DNA of 36,742 bases, from the NCBI RefSeq assembly GCF_002287235.1, contig NZ_LMVP01000246.1, forward strand, positions 1 to 36,742. The letters are read 5' to 3'. Origin of the DNA: Methanosarcina spelaei. Lineage in GTDB: Archaea; Halobacteriota; Methanosarcinia; Methanosarcinales; Methanosarcinaceae. Below, in pieces: positions 4,378 through 35,594 of the stretch (the first letter of the stretch is position 1; the number at the start of each line of letters is the position of its first letter). The notes beneath the pieces were generated by a model that searched no databases, was not told the origin of the DNA, and was given only the letters and a program-made list of their open reading frames with translations. The translations under genes and the position numbers were made by a program.

Positions 4378-5013
4378 ATGAATGGGGGGTTCATTCTGCG
4401 TCAATTTTTCGATGTTTCATTGCCTATTACGGAAGAGATGGTTATACATCCTGGAAAGCCTGGACCTTCTATTAAGAGGTATTCCTCTGTCTCCAGGGAT
4501 AAGGTAAACGAGTCTATTCTGACTATGGGGAGCCATACAGGTACTCACGTAGAGTCCAGGCTGCATCTTCGGAATGGTAGAGAAAGTGCTGCTGACCTGC
4601 CTCTTGATCATTTTTATGGAAAGTGCAGGGTTTTTGATCTCACACTTGTAGAAAGTGAAATTCACAGGCAGGACCTTGAAGAGTTTGAAATCGGGCCTGA
4701 AGAGATAGTGCTTCTCAAGACAAGAAACTCAGCCCTTGGGTACGTAAAATTTCTTGAGAATTATATATACCTTAGAATAGACGCAGCTGAATACCTCGTT
4801 AATGCCGGAGTTAAAACCCTGGGATTTGATTACCTAAGTATTAAAAAACCTGAAGGGGACGATGAGGTCCGTGAACTGCTTATAAATAACACAACTTTAT
4901 TCTTAGGGCTCAACCTCGCCGGCATTCCTGAAGGGGAATATACATTCATAGGTCTGCCTCTTCGTATAGACACGGATGGAGCTCCGGCTAGAGTAATACT
5001 TGTTAAAGAATAA
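4378..5013 (+). CDS. Divergent cyclase / kynurenine formamidase-family protein
   Basis: The protein has the fold signatures of the metal-dependent cyclase (KynB-like) family: FFDVSLPIT at the start, SHTGTHVE near residues 52-59 and the C-terminal LPLRID.DGAPAR. Several positions expected to bind metal or act in catalysis are changed. The usual HxGTHxD reads HTGTHVE (Asp to Glu); PGDP reads PGKP (about 25-28); and the His-His and Glu found near the C-terminus of the paralogue at 34809 are replaced by Val-Arg and Leu. It may bind a different metal or be non-catalytic. The start is uncertain: an ATG at 4378 precedes a GGGGGGT that is ideally placed for a CTG at 4396, whose product would begin RQFFDVSLPI. 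Confidence 0.85.
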   Translation: MNGGFILRQFFDVSLPITEEMVIHPGKPGPSIKRYSSVSRDKVNESILTMGSHTGTHVESRLHLRNGRESAADLPLDHFYGKCRVFDLTLVESEIHRQDLEEFEIGPEEIVLLKTRNSALGYVKFLENYIYLRIDAAEYLVNAGVKTLGFDYLSIKKPEGDDEVRELLINNTTLFLGLNLAGIPEGEYTFIGLPLRIDTDGAPARVILVKE

Positions 5014-17446: not shown

Positions 17447-17523
17447 TGCCAGTGAAAATCGGATTTAAAAACCAATAGCTTTTAAAATTTTTGTGGTTGA
17501 GTGTACACTATGGAGGATATAAA

Positions 17524-17931
17524 ATGAGAAAGACTATGTTTAAGACAGTATGTATTTTCACGTTAGTTTTCTTTGTCCTGTCAATGACAGGAGCAGCGTG
17601 CAGTAAAAGTTGTAAAACAAAAACAGATGCAATAAATGATTCTTATAGTATCAACCTCAAAAAATGTCCAAAAGTTACTTATTGCTTAAACACTGTACTG
17701 AAAAACGATAAAGGATGTAACCTTAAAGTTATAACTACAAAGACTATTACTACCAAACTGGGTGGTAAAGTAACAATGTATAGTAACGGTAAATTCTGCT
17801 ACAAAGCACCATCAACGTGTTGTTATAAAAAATGTTCTTGCACGGACACTTTCAACTACTGTGTAAAAGGTACGGATGGAAGAACCGATTGTGCAACCGT
17901 TAAACTGAAACTCAAATGTGCTACCTGCTAA
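17524..17931 (+). CDS. Secreted cysteine-rich single-domain protein (cadherin/Big-like)
   Basis: The ATG at 17524 has GGAGG with 7 nt spacing; the frame extends upstream but without a ribosome site. A signal peptide covers residues 1-25 (cleavage near TGAAC). The mature part of about 110 residues holds 14 cysteines and one repeat-type domain: DAINDSYSIN...LKNDKGCNLKV...KLGGKVTMYSNGKFCY.AP...DTFNYCVKGTDGRTDCATVKL. That order is the consensus of tandem VCBS/Big_9 cadherin-like surface domains, normally cysteine-free, here present once and probably stitched by up to seven disulfides. The function is unknown; an exported adhesin or a stable extracellular protein is plausible. It is followed by about 130 bp without genes. 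Confidence 0.75.
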   Translation: MRKTMFKTVCIFTLVFFVLSMTGAACSKSCKTKTDAINDSYSINLKKCPKVTYCLNTVLKNDKGCNLKVITTKTITTKLGGKVTMYSNGKFCYKAPSTCCYKKCSCTDTFNYCVKGTDGRTDCATVKLKLKCATC

Positions 17932-24609: not shown

Positions 24610-25305
24610 GTGGACTGCATGTGCAAAGAGTACTTAAAATTGCCTTTTCCCGTTTCTCTTGAATATGTACCTTACCTGTGGCAACAGAGTGATATTCTTG
24701 TTTTTCTTGTTGACCTGGATAACTATGACACATTCAGTACAAGTTACCTCAGCAAGATAGAATTGAAATATCTCGAGAGGTTGCAGACAAGTTACTTTAA
24801 GAAAAGATATATTGTCTCCAGAACGGTTTTAAAACACATAATATGCAAGATTGCTAATGAGCAATCAGCCTCTGAAATATCCACATACAAAAACGAATGT
24901 GGGAAGGTCTGCGTCCTTAATCACAATGAACTACGCATTTGTATATCGTATACCGAAAGCCTTGCAGTCCTTGCAATCTCAAAGGTTGATGTTGGTATTG
25001 ATATTGAACTTGCTAGAAAACTAGCTCTTAAAAGTACTTTTAAAAACTTCCATAAGAAAATTTCACTTGTGGACAAAATTACAGGCGAAACCGATCTTTT
25101 AAAAATATGGACTTTAAAAGAAGCTTATTCCAAGTTTTCAAATAAAAAGATGCATCTTGTTTTTAATAAGGAACTGGATCTCAATAGTGTTAACTATTCA
25201 ACTTACGTTTTGGACAACAAATACTTAATCTCTATCGTTACTTCTCAGGGATCGTACGTCACCATTATAAATCGTCTTCAAAAAATCGAATGTGATTGGG
25301 ACTGA
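24610..25305 (+). CDS. Sfp-type 4'-phosphopantetheinyl transferase
   Basis: It would transfer the phosphopantetheine arm of CoA to a serine of a carrier protein. The family motifs are VGIDIE at residues 128-133 and WTLKEAYSK at 167-175, giving Asp131, Glu133 and Glu171 as magnesium ligands. A His-Ser pair common before the first motif is replaced (ISYTES at 112-117). At 231 residues it fits the Sfp length. The start may be GTG 24610 or ATG 24619; neither has a good ribosome site. The natural partner is the carrier protein that begins 334 bp downstream on the same strand. Sfp-type enzymes are rare in archaea, so horizontal acquisition of the cluster is plausible. Confidence 0.86.
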   Translation: MDCMCKEYLKLPFPVSLEYVPYLWQQSDILVFLVDLDNYDTFSTSYLSKIELKYLERLQTSYFKKRYIVSRTVLKHIICKIANEQSASEISTYKNECGKVCVLNHNELRICISYTESLAVLAISKVDVGIDIELARKLALKSTFKNFHKKISLVDKITGETDLLKIWTLKEAYSKFSNKKMHLVFNKELDLNSVNYSTYVLDNKYLISIVTSQGSYVTIINRLQKIECDWD

Positions 25306-25639
25306 AGATTTTCGATGAAATCTGAAGTTTAAAGCTATGCATCTATTTCTGTTTTATTCAGGCTGATTCGTACACGTATGAATCCCCGATTGTCGGATAA
25401 TATACTGAATATATATTTTTTCATGGAAAAGAAATTAAATCATATAATACATCAGAATGCATGCAATCGATTTTCACTCATATTTCGTCTTAAATAGGGC
25501 TTTTGTCAGCCAATAAGTGGCTCAAATTATTTATATAGTTGGATTACGTAATTATCACTGAGGACTCACGTCATTATGAGCAGAAATGCATTATTTATGA
25601 TTATTGGTCCACTGAACGAAAACTTTGGGGGAAATATAG
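25306..25639. other. Intergenic: promoter of the carrier-protein operon
   Basis: It holds a TATA box at about 25530-25537 and a palindrome at 25543-25552, an imperfect dyad (ATTCGTACACGTATGAAT) at 25367-25384 and AGCCA-ATAAG-TGGCT at about 25508-25522. No gene is visible. Confidence 0.5.
25530..25552 (+). promoter_or_regulatory. Promoter with overlapping palindrome before the carrier-protein gene
   Basis: TTTATATAG (TATA box) is followed by ATTACGTAAT, a 10-bp perfect palindrome close to the expected start of transcription, so a bound protein would block initiation. Its half-site ATTACG equals the arms of the dyads at 10397 and 10509. Confidence 0.4.
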
Positions 25640-25885
25640 ATGGAACAAATAAAGAATGACATTGTAGATTATTTAAAAGCTAATTCTTTCATGGACAATG
25701 GCAGTAGTTTGAAGGACAATGATTCTCTCACTCAAAATGGCATTATAGATTCCATTGGATTACTTGAACTTATGGACTATATCTGTGAGAAATATTCTAT
25801 AGAGATTCCTGAAGATATGCTGACACCGGAAAATTTTGATTCGTTACAGGGAATTACTAATATGATAACAAAACTGGCGAAGTGA
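25640..25885 (+). CDS. Acyl/aminoacyl carrier protein
   Basis: An acidic 81-residue helical protein with the phosphopantetheine site DSIGLLEL (Ser38) instead of the common DSL. The pattern of hydrophobic helices and the ENFDSLQGI segment are typical of discrete carrier proteins such as DltC and polyketide/NRPS carriers. It is the partner of the ligase directly downstream (6 bp gap) and of the PPTase upstream. The ATG has a strong GGGGG with 8 nt spacing. Methanogens have no classical fatty acid synthase, so it most likely serves a specialised pathway; the cargo is unknown. Confidence 0.88.
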   Translation: MEQIKNDIVDYLKANSFMDNGSSLKDNDSLTQNGIIDSIGLLELMDYICEKYSIEIPEDMLTPENFDSLQGITNMITKLAK

Positions 25886-25891
25886 AAAGAT

Positions 25892-27370
25892 ATGCGAATT
25901 GATGCGTATATCGCTGAGTACGCCAGAAAAATTCCTCAAAACATTGCCCTGGAAGAGGGTAAAAACTCAGTTTCCTATAGCTGCCTTGACAATGATATAA
26001 ATACTATTGTTTTAACATTAGATGATTTTAAACACTGCAGGTTTGCAATACTGGCAGAATCAGGCATGCTATATGTGAAAGTTCTCATGGCAGTATATCG
26101 ATCTACCAATATTGCAGTCCCTCTGCCAATAGAATTTCCTAAATTCAGTCTTGAAAAAATCCTTTATACTGCTCATATCAACAATATCATCACAACCGAT
26201 ACACAGTACTCAAGATTTGGAGAGGACTTTTTTGAGCGTTTTGGAACTGTGATAATTATTTCCGGCAGTACATCTGGAGAATTTTTGCGCAAGAAGATTG
26301 AAACAGAAGCGAATAATCCGGAATTACGGCTAGTTCTTTACACTTCAGGTACGACAGGCACCCCAAAAGGAGTTATGTTAAGTGACAGAAACCTGATAGC
26401 AAACGCAGAGTCAATAATAAAGATCCTTCGTATAAATTCCAGAGACAAAGGGGCACTGGTAATATCCCCGCATCATGCTTTTGGGAACTCCATAATTAAC
26501 TCCCATCTAATGGCTGGTAGCTCGGTCAGAATTGGAAATATGAATTTTATAGACTCGGTTTTCAGCCTTATAGGGTCAGATGTGTCCATATTCTATGGGG
26601 TGCCCAGCACCTACCGTATACTCCTTCGGTATCTGGAGAGGTTTAGAAAGGACTTTTCAAACGTTAGAACGGCTGCATCGGCAGGAGGGGGAATGGACCG
26701 GTCTATTGTAAAAGAGATAAGGGAGTTAGCTCCCGATATTGAGATTCTCCCTATGTACGGGCAAACTGAAGCTACCGCAAGGCTTGCCTACTTGCCAGCA
26801 GAAGATGTGGACGAGTTTATTGACACTATAGGAAAAGCAATTCCTGGGGTTATACTGGATGTCTTTGATTCTGAGTACAGGCCAGTAAAGCCTGGCATCA
26901 CGGGCGAACTGGTTGCTACAGGAGACAATATTATGCTGGGATATCTGGATGATGAAATCGCCACGGAAAAGAGAATTATAAATGGGTGGTTGCATACCGG
27001 CGATCTCGCACAGAAATTGCCCAATGGATATATCAGACTGCTAGGACGCAAGGATGATCTTCTAAAAATCGGTGATCATCGCGTTAACCCAAGAGAAATT
27101 GAGAGAAACATAGAAGAAAACAATGAAGTATCAAGGGTTTTTGTCGTACCTGTGCACCATGAACTTATGGGAACTGCAATTAGCCTCATGGTCATACCTG
27201 CGGAAGGGACAGAAATTGAAAAGCTGTTTGCATTCTGCCGAAAAAGCCTGCCAGGTTACCTGTGTCCAAGAGAAATACTATTCATTGATCACCTTCCCTT
27301 GAGCGAAAACGGGAAAATATCCAATAGATCCATTATAGAGGAATACAAGCATGTCAAAGCTAGTATGTAA
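25892..27370 (+). CDS. AMP-forming acyl/amino acid ligase that loads the carrier protein
   Basis: An ANL-superfamily adenylating enzyme of 492 residues. The P-loop YTSGTTGTPKG is at 150-160, YGQTEA at 289-294, HTGDLA at 368-373, GRKDD near 385-389 and the catalytic lysine in ENGKIS at about 475. It activates a carboxylate with ATP and can then load it onto a thiol. The start is 6 bp after the carrier gene, so the carrier is the natural acceptor, as in DltA/DltC or NRPS loading modules. The substrate pocket cannot be predicted by eye. Its 3' end overlaps the next gene by 20 bp, so translation is probably coupled. Confidence 0.88.
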   Translation: MRIDAYIAEYARKIPQNIALEEGKNSVSYSCLDNDINTIVLTLDDFKHCRFAILAESGMLYVKVLMAVYRSTNIAVPLPIEFPKFSLEKILYTAHINNIITTDTQYSRFGEDFFERFGTVIIISGSTSGEFLRKKIETEANNPELRLVLYTSGTTGTPKGVMLSDRNLIANAESIIKILRINSRDKGALVISPHHAFGNSIINSHLMAGSSVRIGNMNFIDSVFSLIGSDVSIFYGVPSTYRILLRYLERFRKDFSNVRTAASAGGGMDRSIVKEIRELAPDIEILPMYGQTEATARLAYLPAEDVDEFIDTIGKAIPGVILDVFDSEYRPVKPGITGELVATGDNIMLGYLDDEIATEKRIINGWLHTGDLAQKLPNGYIRLLGRKDDLLKIGDHRVNPREIERNIEENNEVSRVFVVPVHHELMGTAISLMVIPAEGTEIEKLFAFCRKSLPGYLCPREILFIDHLPLSENGKISNRSIIEEYKHVKASM

Positions 27371-28388
27371 AAAGTGTGTTCTGGATTCCGAGATTCCAGG
27401 TATACAAATTAATGGGGACACTGGCCTCTGCCACTTCTGTGAGACATATACTCCCCTTAGTTCGCAGGATAAAAAGAAATATCTGTCCAGAATTGAAGAA
27501 CTTTTTGAACAGTACGGTGGAAAAGGTAACTACGATGTAATTTATGCACTTTCCGGTGGCAAAGATTCGTCTTACACACTCTACAAACTCAAAAAAGACT
27601 ATCCTTTCCTTAGGATACTTGCTGTACAGTTCGATAACGGGTTCACTTCCGAAAACGCAATAATGAATGCAAAAAAAATGTGCAAGATCACAGGATGCGA
27701 TTATTTCCAGTTAACAATGGAAAAGGAAATTCTGTATAATACATTTCGAAAAGCTGCAGAGTCATATGACGCATTTCCGAAATTCGCCAAATATCGAGCC
27801 AGTGACATATGCAATGTTTGCATCACCATCATTAAACAAAAGTTAATAGAGCAGGCAATACTTCAAAAAGCGCCTTTCGTAATATTTGCCTTTACAGCTG
27901 GACAGTCTCCTAATCCAATAATCAACCTATCAGTTAATTTTATTCAGTGGTCCAGAGACTTATTTGAAAAACAACTTCGGAAAATAGGCGTAGAGGACAA
28001 GGACGAAATCTTTCTCCTAAAAAAAGAGGTTCTTGAGAACGTAGGTGAAAATGTTCCGAGTATACTGCACCCTCTATGCCTCTGGGATTACAGTGAAGAT
28101 AAAGTACTTGAGACCCTGCTTGAAATCGGGTGGGAACTTCCGGGAATCAATGACAGCAATTCAACTAACTGTACATTGAACTCTTTTGCCTGTTACAACC
28201 ACCTGGAGAAGTACGGGTTTCATCCATATGCCTTTGACATAGCAGGGCTTGTCCGAAGCGGTGAAATGTCAAGAGAAGAGGGACTTGAAAAAATTAATCA
28301 GAAACTGTCACAGCCATTGATAGAAGAGGCTGCAAGAAAGCTTAACTTGAAAGTAAAGAGCTCACAAAAAGTAATCGTTAAAGTTTGA
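27351..28388 (+). CDS. N-acetyl sugar amidotransferase-type PP-loop ATP pyrophosphatase
   Basis: The protein has the adenylating PP-loop SGGKDSS (68-74) and an N-terminal zinc-type Cys pattern (Cys6, 9, 27, 30), with a further CNVC at 154-157. This layout matches the WbpG/PseA-like N-acetyl sugar amidotransferases, which use ammonia from HisH/HisF-like partners to turn an acetamido group into an acetamidino group on surface sugars. No glutaminase partner is present next to it. The ATG overlaps the ligase stop and has GAGG with 9 nt spacing. In this cluster it may amidinate a sugar or a carrier-bound substrate. Confidence 0.82.
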   Translation: MSKLVCKKCVLDSEIPGIQINGDTGLCHFCETYTPLSSQDKKKYLSRIEELFEQYGGKGNYDVIYALSGGKDSSYTLYKLKKDYPFLRILAVQFDNGFTSENAIMNAKKMCKITGCDYFQLTMEKEILYNTFRKAAESYDAFPKFAKYRASDICNVCITIIKQKLIEQAILQKAPFVIFAFTAGQSPNPIINLSVNFIQWSRDLFEKQLRKIGVEDKDEIFLLKKEVLENVGENVPSILHPLCLWDYSEDKVLETLLEIGWELPGINDSNSTNCTLNSFACYNHLEKYGFHPYAFDIAGLVRSGEMSREEGLEKINQKLSQPLIEEAARKLNLKVKSSQKVIVKV

Positions 28389-28604
28389 TTCTGAGATAAA
28401 GAGCTTAACTATATTAGATAACCAAATCAATTAAGTTTAATAGTTTAATTTGAACAGTCTAACTTAAACAGTCTAACTTAAACAGCCTAACTTAAACAGT
28501 CTAACTTGAACAGTCTAACTTGAACAGTCTAACTTAAACAATTTAATTTGAACAGTCTAACTTAAACAGTCTAATTCTAAGATCTAATTATTTGAGGGGT
28601 AATT
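28389..28604. other. Intergenic filled by a minisatellite
   Basis: Nearly the whole gap between the amidotransferase-type gene and the NAD-synthetase-like gene is the 14-bp repeat below. It separates the operon into two parts but may be transcribed through. Confidence 0.6.
28452..28577. repeat. 14-bp minisatellite, nine units
   Basis: GAACAGTCTAACTT/AAACAGTCTAACTT units repeat nine times (126 bp); one unit is diverged (AAACAATTTAATTT). Confidence 0.92.
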
Positions 28605-29597
28605 ATGCAGATCACAGAAGAAATGAGCATGAATATAATAGAAGAACTCAATGGAAACATTGAAAATATAGCTTTAAAACTGAGGGGTTTTATTAGAGAT
28701 CAGGTGACTGGTTTTAAGAAAAAAGGAATAGTTATAGGAGTTTCGGGAGGAATTGACTCAGCTGTAGCACTTACACTATGTGTACAGGAACTGGGAAAAG
28801 AAAACGTGCATGGACTTCTCCTTCCTGAAGAGGAATCCGCTCCTTCCAGCAAGACCCTGGGAGCAGAGATCTGTGAAAGCCTTGGAGTGTCGTATGAAGA
28901 AGTGCCCATATCTCCGATTCTAAGATCGCTTAATATCTATGATAAGAAAGAACAAATTATAAAGAGAGTCTGCCCTGAATATGATATCAGAATACATAAA
29001 ACTTCGTTAGTTCTTCCTGATTTTCTTAACACGGGATCGCTAAACGTCCCCTATATCCGCTTAGTAAAAAATAATGAAACTATTGGAAAGTACAGGCTAA
29101 AAGCTACCGATTATCTTGAATTAATAGGCTTGCAGGGCGTCAAACAGAGATCTAGAATGCTCGTTCAATATATGTATGCTGAAACGTTGAATTATGCAGT
29201 TTGCGGTACGACCAACAAGACCGAAGTAGTTCTTGGTCAGTTTGTGAAATATGGGGATGGGGGTGTAGATCTTGAACCTCTGGCAGACTGTTATAAGACC
29301 CAGGTCTATGCTCTGGGGAGATATCTGGATATCAACAAAGAAATTATGAAACGTCCTCCAAGTGCTGATACCTGGAGCCATTACACAACTGATGAGGAAT
29401 TTTACTGGCGCATGCCGATTCAGATCATGGATCAGATGCTGTATGCCCAGGAACATCAGTTGCCCCTGCAAGTAATTGAAAAGAGCACCGGGCTGTCCAG
29501 AGAGACAATCGAAAAAGCCCAGAAGCATATCCATAGAATAAGAAATAATACAGAATATATACGAGCCGCGCCGCCTGTTTGTTATATCAACAGGTAA
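28605..29597 (+). CDS. NAD-synthetase-like (NadE-family) PP-loop ligase with an insertion
   Basis: NadE-type features are SGGIDSA (47-53), NKTE (204-207), KYGDGGVD (215-222) and PPSADTW (251-257). The protein is 330 residues, about 60 longer than ammonia-dependent archaeal NadE, because of an extra segment between roughly 108 and 178 that reaches into the region that binds the deamido-NAD part. It might be a true NAD synthetase or a relative that amidates another carboxyl or acyl-adenylate. It has no glutaminase domain, so it would use ammonia. The ATG is preceded by GAGGGG with a 5-nt spacer. Its place in the carrier cluster favours a specialised substrate. Confidence 0.78.
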   Translation: MQITEEMSMNIIEELNGNIENIALKLRGFIRDQVTGFKKKGIVIGVSGGIDSAVALTLCVQELGKENVHGLLLPEEESAPSSKTLGAEICESLGVSYEEVPISPILRSLNIYDKKEQIIKRVCPEYDIRIHKTSLVLPDFLNTGSLNVPYIRLVKNNETIGKYRLKATDYLELIGLQGVKQRSRMLVQYMYAETLNYAVCGTTNKTEVVLGQFVKYGDGGVDLEPLADCYKTQVYALGRYLDINKEIMKRPPSADTWSHYTTDEEFYWRMPIQIMDQMLYAQEHQLPLQVIEKSTGLSRETIEKAQKHIHRIRNNTEYIRAAPPVCYINR

Positions 29598-29633
29598 AAA
29601 CTGTGGAAATGCCTGTAAACAAAATTAAAAAGT

Positions 29634-30773
29634 GTGAATATGAATACCAGGGTCTCAGTTGTTGAATGCCAGGACTATTCGAGTGCTAAAGAATCGATAA
29701 ACGAAGCGCTAAACCTGATAGGCGGGCTTGAGAAAATTATAGTTCCTGGCAGCCGCGTGCTTCTCAAACCCAATGTGCTTTCTATTCGACCGCCAGAGGA
29801 TGCCGTTACCACCCATCCGGCGATAGTATCCGCTATGTGCGAACTTGTCTCGGAAGCAGGAGGCATTCCAGTTGTAGGAGACGGGTCCGGTATTGTGAAA
29901 CCCGGATCCACTACGACTTCGCAGGCGCTTAAAGTGTCTGGTATTGAGGATGTTGCTTTCGATCATGGGGTTGAGTTGATCAATTTTGAGACGTCAGGTT
30001 TTATTGAAATTGATGTTCCGAATGCAAGTCAGTTTTCTCATCTGTACATCTCAAAAGCCATACTTGAGGCAGATGTAGTAATCTCTCTTCCAAAGCTCAA
30101 GACCCATGAACTCACACTGTATACAGGGGCAGTTAAAAATTTCTTCGGCGCCGTACCTCAGAAAACTAGAAAACAAGCTCATTTCCTGGAAGACCGCCGC
30201 CGTTTTGGAGAAGCAATTGTTGACATATATTCTGTTGTCAAGCCTCAGCTTGCAGTTATGGATGGAGTGGTTGGAATGGAAGGAAATGGTCCGTCCAATG
30301 GCACACCTATCTTTGCAGGCGTGATTATGGCAAGTTATGACTGTGTATCCCTGGATATAGTAGCCTCTGAGCTTATAGGAGTCGATCCTTTAAAGGTTCC
30401 TACAAATATAGCTGCAATCAAAAGAGGTTTCGGAACCGAGCATCCTGAGATTGTTGGGATACTGCTGGAAAAAGCAAAGGTCAGGTTCAAAAGCCCTGAA
30501 GGCGGAATTACGGCTTATATACCAGCTTTCCTTATGAGAATCCTTAGAAAACAATTAGCTGTAAGGCCTATTATTAACACTTCAAAATGTGAACTTTGTA
30601 GAGCCTGCGTTTCGAACTGTTCAGCGCATGCCATTGAGAAAATAGACAGTGTACTCAAAATTAACGAAGAGAAATGCATTCACTGTTATTGCTGCCGTGA
30701 ACTTTGCCCTAATGATGCGGTAGAAATAAAAAAATCACTGCTTATGAAGCTTGTAACCAGAAGTAAAAGTTAA
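29634..30773 (+). CDS. DUF362 protein with C-terminal two-[4Fe-4S] ferredoxin domain
   Basis: The first 300 residues belong to the DUF362 family (LLKPNVLS, DGSGIVKPG, SLPKLKTHELTLYTGAVKNFFG, MDGVVGMEGNGPSNGTP). The C-terminus has two CxxCxxCxxxC groups: Cys319, 322, 325, 329 and Cys348, 351, 354, 358. The family is widespread in anaerobes and mostly uncharacterised; a redox role is likely. It follows the NAD-synthetase-like gene by 36 bp, so it is probably in the same operon. The start may be GTG 29634 or the ATG two codons later; there is no good ribosome site for either. Confidence 0.87.
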   Translation: MNMNTRVSVVECQDYSSAKESINEALNLIGGLEKIIVPGSRVLLKPNVLSIRPPEDAVTTHPAIVSAMCELVSEAGGIPVVGDGSGIVKPGSTTTSQALKVSGIEDVAFDHGVELINFETSGFIEIDVPNASQFSHLYISKAILEADVVISLPKLKTHELTLYTGAVKNFFGAVPQKTRKQAHFLEDRRRFGEAIVDIYSVVKPQLAVMDGVVGMEGNGPSNGTPIFAGVIMASYDCVSLDIVASELIGVDPLKVPTNIAAIKRGFGTEHPEIVGILLEKAKVRFKSPEGGITAYIPAFLMRILRKQLAVRPIINTSKCELCRACVSNCSAHAIEKIDSVLKINEEKCIHCYCCRELCPNDAVEIKKSLLMKLVTRSKS

Positions 30774-31176
30774 CAGGAGAATTATAGTTAGCATAAGAGT
30801 CGCCTGAGAGTATGTATGATTAAGCATAATGGACAGTGTACTAGGCAGATTATTAATGCCAAAATTAATTAGGCGTAATAAGTAATTTATTTATCTATCG
30901 AAATGCCAATGAAAAAGCGTAAAAAATTTAATAAGGATGTATTATAAAATAATTTGACAGAAAAGTCATGTAAAATAATTTAATCGAGAAAATTGTATCC
31001 CACTTTCCGCAGATGTACACAAAAATGCCACTTATTATCTCAATACGGCAATAAGCTAAAAACTTAAAATCGGATTTGATGAGATAATATGGCAAATCGG
31101 CAAATAAATTCTACATCTGTGTACATCTGCGGAATGTAGGTTGTATAAATAACTAGATAGAAATGGGGGGTATAGC
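30774..31176. other. Intergenic with a MITE inserted before the acyltransferase gene
   Basis: Without the MITE at 30999-31140 and its flanking duplication the gap would be about 255 bp. The rest is AT-rich. Confidence 0.55.
30999..31140. mobile_element. MITE-like element, 142 bp, 23-bp TIRs, 6-bp TSD
   Basis: The outer ends match over 23 bp with two mismatches (core TTCCGCAGATGTACACA on the left, its reverse complement on the right). The inner part is also palindromic (TGCCAC..TATTATCTCA against TGAGATAATATGGCA). TTGTAT flanks both sides (30993-30998 and 31141-31146). The family differs from the other MITEs in the window. Confidence 0.85.
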
Positions 31177-31710
31177 GTGACTACTGTAGTGTCTAATAGA
31201 GATAAAGTAGCTTTTAGCGAAGTTGCGGACCATTACCACAGTAATAAACTTCTGTTTGGCATAAAATATTTTAAAAATTGGATTCTGGAACAGCTTGCCT
31301 CATTCATTCCCGTTCCTTCCTGGAGGGCAAAACTGCACAGGATGAGGGGTGTAAATCTTGGGCATAATGTATATGTCGGCTATAATGTGGTTTTTGATCG
31401 AATCCACCCTGAATTAATTACGGTAGGAGATTACTCTGAAATCGGGGACCGATGCATACTATCTGCTCATACGAGAGGGAGTTTGACTACAAGACAAGCA
31501 TATCCGAGAACTATGGCTCCCATAAAAATCGGACGTGGAGTTTGTGTAAACCCTGGATGTATAATCACTCAGGGTGTAGAAATCGGGGATAACTCAATAA
31601 TAGGTATCGGATCAGTAGTTAACCGCAGCATATCTCCAAATAGTCTTGCTCTGGGCTATCCTGCCAGGGTAATTAAAAAGCTTGAAGGTGTAGGTGAACT
31701 TAAAACCTGA
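31177..31710 (+). CDS. Left-handed beta-helix (hexapeptide) acyltransferase
   Basis: From about residue 57 the protein is built of hexapeptide repeats (MRGVNLGHNVYVGYNVVFD, LITVGDYSEIGDRCIL, IKIGRGVCVNPGCIITQGVEIGDNSIIGIGSVV) and ends YPARVIKKL. This is the LbH fold of sugar O/N-acetyltransferases (WbbJ/NeuD/maltose acetyltransferase group). It would transfer an acyl group from CoA, or here possibly from the carrier protein, to a sugar or amine. The start is GTG with GGGGGGT 5 nt before it. It is on the same strand as the cluster but separated by the MITE, so membership of the operon is likely but not certain. Confidence 0.82.
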   Translation: MTTVVSNRDKVAFSEVADHYHSNKLLFGIKYFKNWILEQLASFIPVPSWRAKLHRMRGVNLGHNVYVGYNVVFDRIHPELITVGDYSEIGDRCILSAHTRGSLTTRQAYPRTMAPIKIGRGVCVNPGCIITQGVEIGDNSIIGIGSVVNRSISPNSLALGYPARVIKKLEGVGELKT

Positions 31711-34808: not shown

Positions 34809-35594
34809 ATGGGAAAAACTCCAATTGACGTGAAAGGAATTTTTACTCAAGTGGAAGAATTTCAGGCTGAAATGGGGAAACTCACAGCTCATGGAAAAAT
34901 AATAGATATTACCGTCCCGATTTCCCCTTTTACACGGACTTTTCCCGGAGACCCGATACCTGCAATTGAGAAGGTCTGTACTCTTGAAGAGGAAGGCTAT
35001 GCTGTATCAAAGTTGAGTCTTGGAAGCCATACAGGCACACATGTCGATGCTCCTTCTCATATCCTGAAAAATGGCCTGACTATTGACAAACTGGAACTAA
35101 AAAGCCTCATGGGTCCGGCTCTTATTCTCGACTTTTCATCACTGTCAGGTGAACTGACTGCTCGTATTCTTGAAAAGGCATTTCAGAACATGGGAGCTCC
35201 TGAAAATATCCAGATCCTCCTTCTGAAAACAGAAGCCTTTTCTCGGAAACAAGGAAATGCAGGTAACCTTAGTACACAAAGTACAGAGTCAGATCCACAA
35301 AGTATGGAACTAGGGAAGGAAAAATCTGGCTCTGCATACCTTGACGAAAGCGGAACAGCCTGGATTGTTGAAAAAGGCTTCAAGACGATCGGAATTGACG
35401 ATTTTTCGGTGGACAATTTTTATTCCGAAACTCTACCTGCTCACCACATCCTTCTTTCAGGTAATGTGAACATAATAGAATGTCTTGAACTCAGCTCCAT
35501 ACGAGCAGGAACTTATTTCTTCCTCTGCCTTCCCCTTAAAATTGAAGGTTGTGACGGCGCACCTGCAAGAGCCTTATTGATATCTTATTCTTGA
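34809..35594 (+). CDS. Cyclase-family metal-dependent hydrolase (kynurenine formamidase-like)
   Basis: The family motif is intact: HTGTHVDAPSH at residues 74-84 (His74, His78, Asp80, His84), FPGDP near 45-49, and the C-terminal His-His and Glu (AHHILLSGNVNIIE). The fold is that of the metal-dependent KynB-type cyclases, which hydrolyse amides, esters or lactones. A 25-residue polar insert lies near 155-180. The ATG has AGGTG with 6 nt spacing. It follows a ferredoxin gene and is the catalytically intact paralogue of the divergent copy at 4378. Confidence 0.9.
   Translation: MGKTPIDVKGIFTQVEEFQAEMGKLTAHGKIIDITVPISPFTRTFPGDPIPAIEKVCTLEEEGYAVSKLSLGSHTGTHVDAPSHILKNGLTIDKLELKSLMGPALILDFSSLSGELTARILEKAFQNMGAPENIQILLLKTEAFSRKQGNAGNLSTQSTESDPQSMELGKEKSGSAYLDESGTAWIVEKGFKTIGIDDFSVDNFYSETLPAHHILLSGNVNIIECLELSSIRAGTYFFLCLPLKIEGCDGAPARALLISYS

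Follow-up and report, generated by a model that had tools for sequence, protein, structure and literature searches.

Several described systems share parts of the gene cluster considered here. Closthioamide, an antibiotic of Ruminiclostridium cellulolyticum, is made with CtaC, a carrier-protein-dependent Fe-S thioamide synthetase that acts on carrier-bound substrates by means of D77/S78 and C154/C157/C284 (PMC6772006). Sugar amidotransferases of the WbuX family (TIGR03573; structure 8wex) share the fold of one enzyme of the cluster. In rhizobia, an AsnB-ACP-ligase-NAD(+) synthase-like operon corresponds to the SMb20650/SMb20651 region of Sinorhizobium meliloti, and the carrier protein (ACP) of a homologous rhizobial ligase-ACP pair is reported to be acylated in E. 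coli (PMC7232532). Apart from scattered transfers, carrier-protein biochemistry is regarded as absent from archaea (PMC3533463).

A cluster of seven genes in Methanosarcina spelaei combines elements of these systems. It is our view, with a probability of about one half, that the cluster encodes a dedicated thiotemplated pathway in which an acyl group modified with nitrogen and probably also sulfur would be delivered to an acceptor, most likely a surface glycan. Searches of the open-access literature for an archaeal ACP/PPTase pathway or an archaeal CtaC yielded no account of the cluster. A preliminary description had stated that no archaeal pathway with this combination of genes was known to its author.

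Organization of the Locus

The genes lie in the window, the whole 36,742-nucleotide stretch of DNA that was analysed. Pfam and NCBIfam searches, together with motifs, bear out the domain families and positions first proposed for them. All seven are on the + strand; they are real, intact genes under purifying selection, with dN/dS values of 0.02–0.27 against two relatives (0.02 for the ACP).

24610..25305, + strand: phosphopantetheinyl transferase (PPTase, PPT), Sfp-type, 231 aa (PF01648, phmmer match to Sfp, motifs)
25530..25537, + strand: TTTATATA, possible archaeal TATA box (exact match)
25640..25885, + strand: ACP, discrete acyl/peptidyl carrier protein, 81 aa, with its Ser in DSIGLLEL (PF00550)
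25892..27370, + strand: LIG, ANL-superfamily acyl ligase, 492 aa (PF00501 and PF13193, core motifs)
27351..28388, + strand: AANH, PP-loop enzyme, 345 aa, with WbuX-like fold and Cys triad
28442..28574, no strand: 14-bp tandem repeat AGTCTAACTTAAAC, 9.5 copies, in the AANH-NAD gap (Tandem Repeats Finder score 196)
28605..29597, + strand: NAD(+)-synthase-like, NH3-dependent PP-loop enzyme of the NF002048 subfamily, with an insert, 330 aa
29634..30773, + strand: DUF362 protein with C-terminal 2x[4Fe-4S] ferredoxin motifs, 379 aa, accessory (PF04015 and Fer4)
31177..31710, + strand: HEX, left-handed beta-helix (hexapeptide) acyltransferase, 177 aa, accessory (PF00132)

The ACP and ligase genes are 6 bp apart and the ligase and AANH genes overlap by 20 bp, exactly as had been claimed. 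That there are several transcription units is suggested by the intergenic gaps: 334 bp between PPTase and ACP, 216 bp between AANH and NAD (occupied by the 14-bp repeat), and 403 bp between DUF362 and HEX. The octamer TTTATATA, inside the first of these gaps and 110 bp upstream of the ACP start, is a weak candidate for a TATA box because it occurs eight times in the window against 4.0 expected. A scan with a bacterial sigma-70 promoter model, which is not meaningful for archaea, gave scores near those of shuffles. A PADLOC search for anti-phage defence returned no matches among the seven proteins.

Distribution and Linkage

Of 40 Methanosarcinales loci, 39 have ACP, LIG, and AANH side by side, and the remaining one lies at a contig end; in 38 the NAD gene follows AANH. 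This core of four genes is syntenic through the Methanosarcinaceae. Conserved synteny of PPTase, ACP, ligase, and amidotransferase-type gene had been proposed as support for a pathway, and exactly that set is syntenic across relatives, with the PPTase unlinked or undetected in a minority of genomes. Of the 186 genomes of the order, 52 carry AANH, and precisely these 52 carry the NAD-like enzyme; among 393 genomes of the phylum the two again coincide exactly, in 33, when full-length AANH is counted. Dozens of genomes keep the same gene order, so the arrangement is not due to chance, and since the set recurs with altered order and orientation in Methanoregula/Methanoculleus-type genomes, the linkage is under selection. 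The PPTase is the sole PPTase match in its own genome, and the ACP the sole carrier protein above cut-off. Synteny, the co-occurrence of AANH and NAD-like genes, and these single copies sustain the earlier proposal of a dedicated carrier-protein pathway; that the cluster encodes a conserved pathway of this kind is almost certain.

Every domain taken singly belongs to a common superfamily, and the genes might be regarded as ordinary housekeeping genes (for NAD synthesis, fatty acid activation, and tRNA thiolation) that happen to be adjacent. Such a coincidence is scarcely credible: it is contradicted by a canonical NadE gene elsewhere, by the fact that the genome has no ACP or PPTase outside the cluster, by the identical phylogenetic profile, and by repeated re-linking in new gene orders.

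The distribution also bears on a possible role in the synthesis of a methanogen cofactor, for example methanophenazine or another lineage-specific compound. Methanophenazine is typical of the Methanosarcinales, its biosynthesis is to our knowledge unsolved, and a pair of PP-loop enzymes that form amides would be in keeping with an N-heterocycle. One near-complete Methanosarcina genome (G162) and many Methanosarcinaceae lack the module, and it is found in Methanoregula/Methanoculleus-type genomes and, in analogous form, in rhizobia. So patchy a distribution disfavours an essential cofactor, and we consider a cofactor pathway very improbable.

The Carrier Protein and Its Partners

The PPTase scores 25.6 bits against the ACPS model PF01648 (cut-off 25) and matches the Sfp structure 1qr0 in a phmmer search (E 3e-4). 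Its motifs, GIDIE...WTLKEAYSK, supply the GIDIE and W(T)xKEAxxK elements that, with the ACPS domain, mark the Sfp type. The ligase has an AMP-binding domain and the associated C-terminal domain, with the motifs YTSGTTGTPKG...NGK. Because its A4 region, SPHHAFGNS, is without the Asp that anchors an amino acid, an ordinary carboxylic acid would be a more likely substrate than an amino acid. It had been suggested that an acid or amino acid is loaded on the carrier; the former is retained, and the missing Asp speaks against the latter.

Fatty acid synthesis was considered and rejected. The type II partners (ketosynthase, malonyl transferase, dehydratase, and enoyl reductase) are all absent from the seven genes, and relatives add only a FabG-like reductase.

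The AANH Enzyme

The PP-loop of AANH, SGGKDSS at residue 68, contains D72/S73, which are invariant in 19 aligned sequences. Also invariant in the alignment is a Cys triad formed by a CxxC motif (C154, C157) and C274, arranged as in CtaC and TtuA. Among AANH-related open reading frames with more than 45% identity, 122 of 127 combine the PP-loop with CNxC and (S/T)(S/T)NCx(I/L)N; the latter, C-terminal motif occurs in none of the canonical WbuX proteins. In the phylogenetic tree, archaeal AANH, one ACP-linked AANH from Helicobacteraceae, and AANH embedded in NRPS proteins split from WbuX with support of 97/96, and the split is retained (90/91) in a smaller sequence set without the motif columns. 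The score of AANH against TIGR03573, 118.8 bits, lies below the cut-off of 203.2. The first assignment of this gene as an amidotransferase therefore has to be revised: the score is sub-threshold, the Cys triad is foreign to WbuX, and the tree sets the two apart, so that AANH is, as judged from its sequence, not a member of that family. Its CxxC...C triad is that of the Fe-S AANH enzymes that depend on a carrier protein, so sulfur insertion by AANH would be no less likely than the transfer of ammonia.

It is possible, if rather unlikely, that AANH is nonetheless WbuX-like in its chemistry, exchanging oxygen for NH on a carrier-bound group or forming a nitrile by dehydration. Both PP-loop enzymes would then add ammonia and the product would be an amidino-acyl decoration, which is close to the view of the preliminary description. 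The closest full-length fold match of AANH is indeed the N-acetyl sugar amidotransferase 8wex (Z 23.6 over 318 residues), followed by the nitrile synthetase ArtA (Z 12.6) and Fe-S thiolases (Z about 11–12); the WbuX model, although its cut-off is not reached, is still the best NCBIfam match; and the rhizobial ACP-ligase-NadE operon has an AsnB amidotransferase where archaea have AANH. This amidine or amide pathway is opposed by the Cys triad, by the grouping of AANH with NRPS-embedded enzymes, and by the lack of a HisH/HisF-type glutaminase among the seven genes in Pfam searches; HisH/HisF or HisH adjoin canonical WbuX at three loci (L131, L096, and L148).

The NAD-Synthase-Like Enzyme and Accessory Genes

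The NAD-like enzyme passes the NF002048 cut-off of 313 with 479.2 bits, has the PP-loop SGGIDSA, and is similar in fold to 2e18 and 1xng (Z about 26). A separate, canonical NadE is encoded on another contig of the same genome, so that NAD synthesis is not needed from the cluster gene, and ordinary NAD synthesis as its sole role was rejected. The cluster enzyme and NadE have in common their fold, PP-loop, and the GT(T/G)NK(T/S)E and K(Y/F)GDGG motifs, but the cluster enzyme contains an insert that the NadE of its own genome lacks, and in the order and phylum samples it is found only together with AANH. It had been proposed that two PP-loop enzymes add ammonia; this step may be kept for the NAD-like enzyme on the basis of its family, and for AANH sulfur is at least as likely.

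The DUF362 protein contains CxxCxxCxxxC motifs at residues 319 and 348 (two 4Fe-4S motifs) and is conserved only in Methanosarcina/Methanomethylovorans-type loci; hexapeptide or GNAT transferases recur beside the core in relatives. Neither DUF362 nor the hexapeptide transferase belongs to the core; both are additions found in particular lineages. The GNAT of Methanomicrobiales loci, considered as a possible missing partner, has no match in the Methanosarcina spelaei genome at E 0.01, in a search run without a positive control.

The cluster had been called complete, which is doubtful because relatives, including most of those outside Methanosarcina, carry a FabG-like reductase between the NAD and DUF362 genes that is absent from the Methanosarcina spelaei locus. 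The closest candidates in its genome, two SDRs of 42–43% identity on another contig, are uncertain.

Discussion

The pathway that we favour would begin with the Sfp-type PPTase, predicted to arm the ACP, an assignment strongly supported by co-localization. The ANL ligase would adenylate a simple carboxylic acid and load it on the ACP, as its family, the 6-bp spacing, and the missing Asp suggest. From its family, the NAD-like enzyme may adenylate a carboxylate and combine it with free ammonia to give a carboxamide. AANH probably acts on an ACP-bound substrate, and there, with its putative CxxC...C Fe-S site, it could replace an amide or acyl oxygen with sulfur, as CtaC does, to yield a thioamide; formation of an amidine or nitrile is the alternative. 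We lean slightly toward sulfur rather than nitrogen chemistry at this step. No gene for a sulfur donor is present in the cluster. In most relatives outside Methanosarcina the FabG-like reductase may adjust the acyl chain. A hexapeptide or GNAT acyltransferase would move the group to an amine or hydroxyl of a sugar, and DUF362 might conceivably provide electrons or Fe-S support.

A surface-glycan role, proposed earlier, is favoured by gene context in relatives. Glycosyltransferases, a flippase, a DegT aminotransferase, deacetylases, PIG-L, and GNAT lie beside the core in Methanomicrobiales, and glycosyltransferases adjoin the extra Methanosarcina copies and the Azospirillum and Roseateles modules. 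The window offers no such context, and no glycosyltransferase was identified adjoining the Methanosarcina spelaei locus itself. We give a glycan acceptor an even chance. A diffusible thiotemplated product (an antibiotic, signal, or metal chelator), formed when the acyltransferase joins the ACP-bound group to a small amine, would accord with the closthioamide precedent (PMC6772006), the NRPS context of related AANH domains, a patchy distribution, and duplicate copies flanked by transposase-like genes. Near-fixation in Methanosarcina (28 of 30 genomes), the glycan genes adjoining the module in several lineages, and the failure to recognize an exporter or regulator gene in the cluster all argue against such a product, which we regard as unlikely.

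The sole carrier protein and PPTase of this genome serve one dedicated, selected pathway common to many methanogens. A more specific claim is put forward tentatively: an NH3-using NAD-like enzyme and a CtaC-type Fe-S AANH, acting in sequence, would build a thioamide (or amidine) acyl group that is then placed on the cell surface. This would be a novel type of glycan or small-molecule modification and the first thiotemplated pathway to be described from methanogens. Should AANH turn out to make thioamides on a carrier protein, the reach of thiotemplated sulfur chemistry would include tractable archaea such as Methanosarcina, and an undiscovered metabolite or surface modification would be implied.

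Among known systems, the closthioamide pathway shares with the archaeal cluster a thiotemplated, NRPS-independent logic, a stand-alone carrier protein, an AMP-forming ligase, and an AANH enzyme with near-identical CxxC...C positions. AANH has the attributes of the CtaC type, namely the catalytic Asp/Ser PP-loop, the Cys triad, carrier-protein and ligase neighbours, and the tree grouping; the likeness rests on published CtaC residue numbers and on NRPS-linked relatives. Pfam and NCBIfam searches show among the seven genes no counterpart of the ATP-grasp loader, chorismate lyase, peptidyl transferase, and transglutaminase that closthioamide synthesis also uses; the archaeal cluster has instead an NAD-synthase-like enzyme and, in relatives, FabG. 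The NRPS-embedded enzymes of Roseovarius, Pseudohalocynthiibacter, and Streptomyces plasmids conserve the Cys triad and PP-loop and lie in cis with carrier and condensation domains, but are fused into multidomain bacterial proteins. WbuX resembles AANH in overall fold, in an N-terminal Cys4 element, and in the glycan-linked context seen in relatives, but has HisH/HisF as partner, where AANH has a carrier protein as neighbour.

Archaea are not alone in having the ACP-ligase-NadE triple, since it occurs in rhizobia. There too the ACP, ligase, and NF002048-type NAD synthase genes are adjacent, often with a GNAT-like protein, and the NAD-like enzymes are 35% identical to that of the cluster; AsnB takes the place of the Fe-S AANH. 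Work on the archaeal module may help to explain the orphan ACP operon of rhizobia.

The gene cluster and its genomic setting

A carrier-protein-based pathway is real in methanogens and is under selection. The window is an entire contig of a Methanosarcina-type genome (G000:C246), and the seven genes delimited in the preliminary description lie intact on a single strand. Their family assignments are upheld by domain-level searches, and the catalytic motifs are complete.

Genes of the cluster
24610-25305, +, PPTase
25640-25885, +, carrier protein (ACP)
25892-27370, +, ANL ligase (LIG)
27351-28388, +, PP-loop enzyme (AANH)
28605-29597, +, NAD-synthase-like protein
29634-30773, +, DUF362 protein with two [4Fe-4S] motifs
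31177-31710, +, hexapeptide transferase

All seven are under purifying selection, with dN/dS from 0.02 (ACP) to 0.27 (PPTase). Between AANH and the NAD-synthase-like gene, most of the intergenic space consists of a 14-bp tandem repeat, AGTCTAACTTAAAC (28442-28574, about 9.5 copies). Elsewhere in the window are two cyclase/kynurenine-formamidase-like proteins that are alike in sequence (4378-5013 and 34809-35594) and a small cysteine-rich protein whose start resembles a signal peptide (17491-17931).

The genome encodes a single PF00550 protein above cut-off, the ACP of the cluster, and a single PF01648 protein, the cluster PPTase, which thus has one evident client. Canonical NadE is encoded on a separate contig, so the NAD-synthase-like gene is not required for NAD synthesis. 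Its product has the fold (Z about 26) and motifs of NadE, plus an insert, modelled at lower confidence, that the genome's own NadE lacks. The ligase has all ANL motifs. Aligned to LgrA, its A4 region reads SPHHAFGNS and lacks the amino-group-anchoring Asp of amino-acid-activating domains, which makes a plain carboxylic acid the likelier substrate.

Conservation of the core

Among 40 Methanosarcinales loci, each of 20 kb or less, ACP-LIG-AANH is contiguous in 39, the lone exception being a contig end. The NAD-like gene follows AANH in 38, and the PPTase lies adjacent in 27. AANH and the NAD-like gene occur in the identical 52 of 186 genomes of the order and, counting full-length AANH, the identical 33 of 393 of the phylum; both are absent from two Methanosarcina genomes. 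Methanoregula- and Methanoculleus-type genomes have the same genes arranged in different orders and orientations (NAD< ACP> AANH>), and in most of them the PPTase, the ligase and a GNAT protein are encoded close by. That the core genes are rearranged yet still linked argues for a functional unit. The DUF362 and hexapeptide transferase genes are lineage-specific additions. A FabG-like reductase follows the NAD-like gene in 15 of the 40 loci (Methanococcoides, Methanolobus, Methanomethylovorans and some others) and is not present at the window locus.

This synteny, the shared distribution and the single ACP and PPTase bear out the earlier view of a carrier-protein core, and that view was also right about its rarity. 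ACP machinery is generally described as absent from archaea (PMC3533463), and searches of the open-access literature turned up no account of a pathway like this one in that domain.

Extra core copies occur at L045, L046, L050 and L069 (genomes G177, G154 and G149). The three examined come after an indolepyruvate oxidoreductase subunit or a fragment of one, with transposase-like genes or glycosyltransferases in the vicinity, settings that suggest duplication or transfer as a cassette. A second copy at L048 (G155), in which the ligase is truncated and the NAD gene missing, is apparently decaying.

Bacterial counterparts and destination of the product

Bacterial relatives of the NAD-like protein, in rhizobia and Azospirillum, are encoded in AsnB-ACP-ligase-NadE operons, many of which also encode a GNAT-like protein. 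ACP, ligase and NadE-like protein thus make up a module that extends beyond archaea, partnered by AsnB in bacteria and by AANH in the window. The conserved set of AsnB, ACP, adenylating ligase and NAD(+) synthase-like protein, often with the GNAT-like protein, was seen on plasmids of Shinella, Rhizobium, Roseateles, Azospirillum and Mesorhizobium (L149, L150, L152, L154, L155). The Sinorhizobium meliloti pair SMb20651/SMb20650, equated with the pSymB locus by gene order rather than locus tag, is reported to form acyl-ACP in E. coli (PMC7232532). One locus of a Helicobacteraceae MAG (L131) holds ACP-AANH, a GNAT or possible acyltransferase-like protein, asparagine synthase and a carbamoyltransferase, as well as a canonical WbuX-HisH-HisF set.

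Neighbours of the module in Methanomicrobiales include glycosyltransferases, a flippase, a DegT aminotransferase, polysaccharide deacetylases and PIG-L; glycosyltransferases also lie beside extra copies in two Methanosarcina genomes and beside the Azospirillum and Roseateles modules. These neighbours favour transfer of the product to a surface glycan, one of the two outcomes that had been proposed. No glycosyltransferase was seen adjacent to the window locus itself, however, and a small-molecule product is a possible alternative.

Chemistry of the PP-loop enzyme

AANH had been described as an amidotransferase-type protein, and its fold agrees: the best full-length match of the AlphaFold model (pLDDT 91.5) is 8wex, an N-acetyl sugar amidotransferase of Legionella (Z 23.6). 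The next matches (Z 11-13) are the nitrile synthetase ArtA and the [4Fe-4S] thiolases NcsA and TtuA. However, its best NCBIfam match, WbuX, scores 118.8, far below the cut-off of 203.2, and it has a cysteine triad, C154xxC157...C274, that is invariant in 19 aligned proteins. The PP-loop and both cysteine motifs occur in 122 of 127 relatives of more than 45% identity from all loci at hand; the exceptions are mostly truncated, and the count includes some genomes twice. In canonical WbuX the CxxC is confined to an N-terminal element, and the C-terminal motif was found in none of those compared.

The same triad recurs in AANH domains within NRPS proteins of Roseovarius, Pseudohalocynthiibacter and Streptomyces plasmids. 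Such domains, embedded after an A domain or in a condensation-domain fusion (L143:12424-20472, L145, L144:14935-17115), are candidate thioamide-forming NRPS systems. Archaeal and NRPS-linked AANH proteins separate from WbuX in the tree with branch support of 97/96; in a smaller set from which the motif columns had been left out, the support was 90/91.

We infer from these sequence features that the cluster chemistry is better read as resembling that of CtaC, the carrier-protein-dependent Fe-S thioamide synthetase of closthioamide, and that sulfur insertion is somewhat likelier than ammonia transfer at the AANH step. CtaC accepts carrier-bound substrates only, depends on its Fe-S cluster for activity, and requires D77, S78, C154, C157 and C284 (PMC6772006); the window AANH has D72, S73, C154, C157 and C274.
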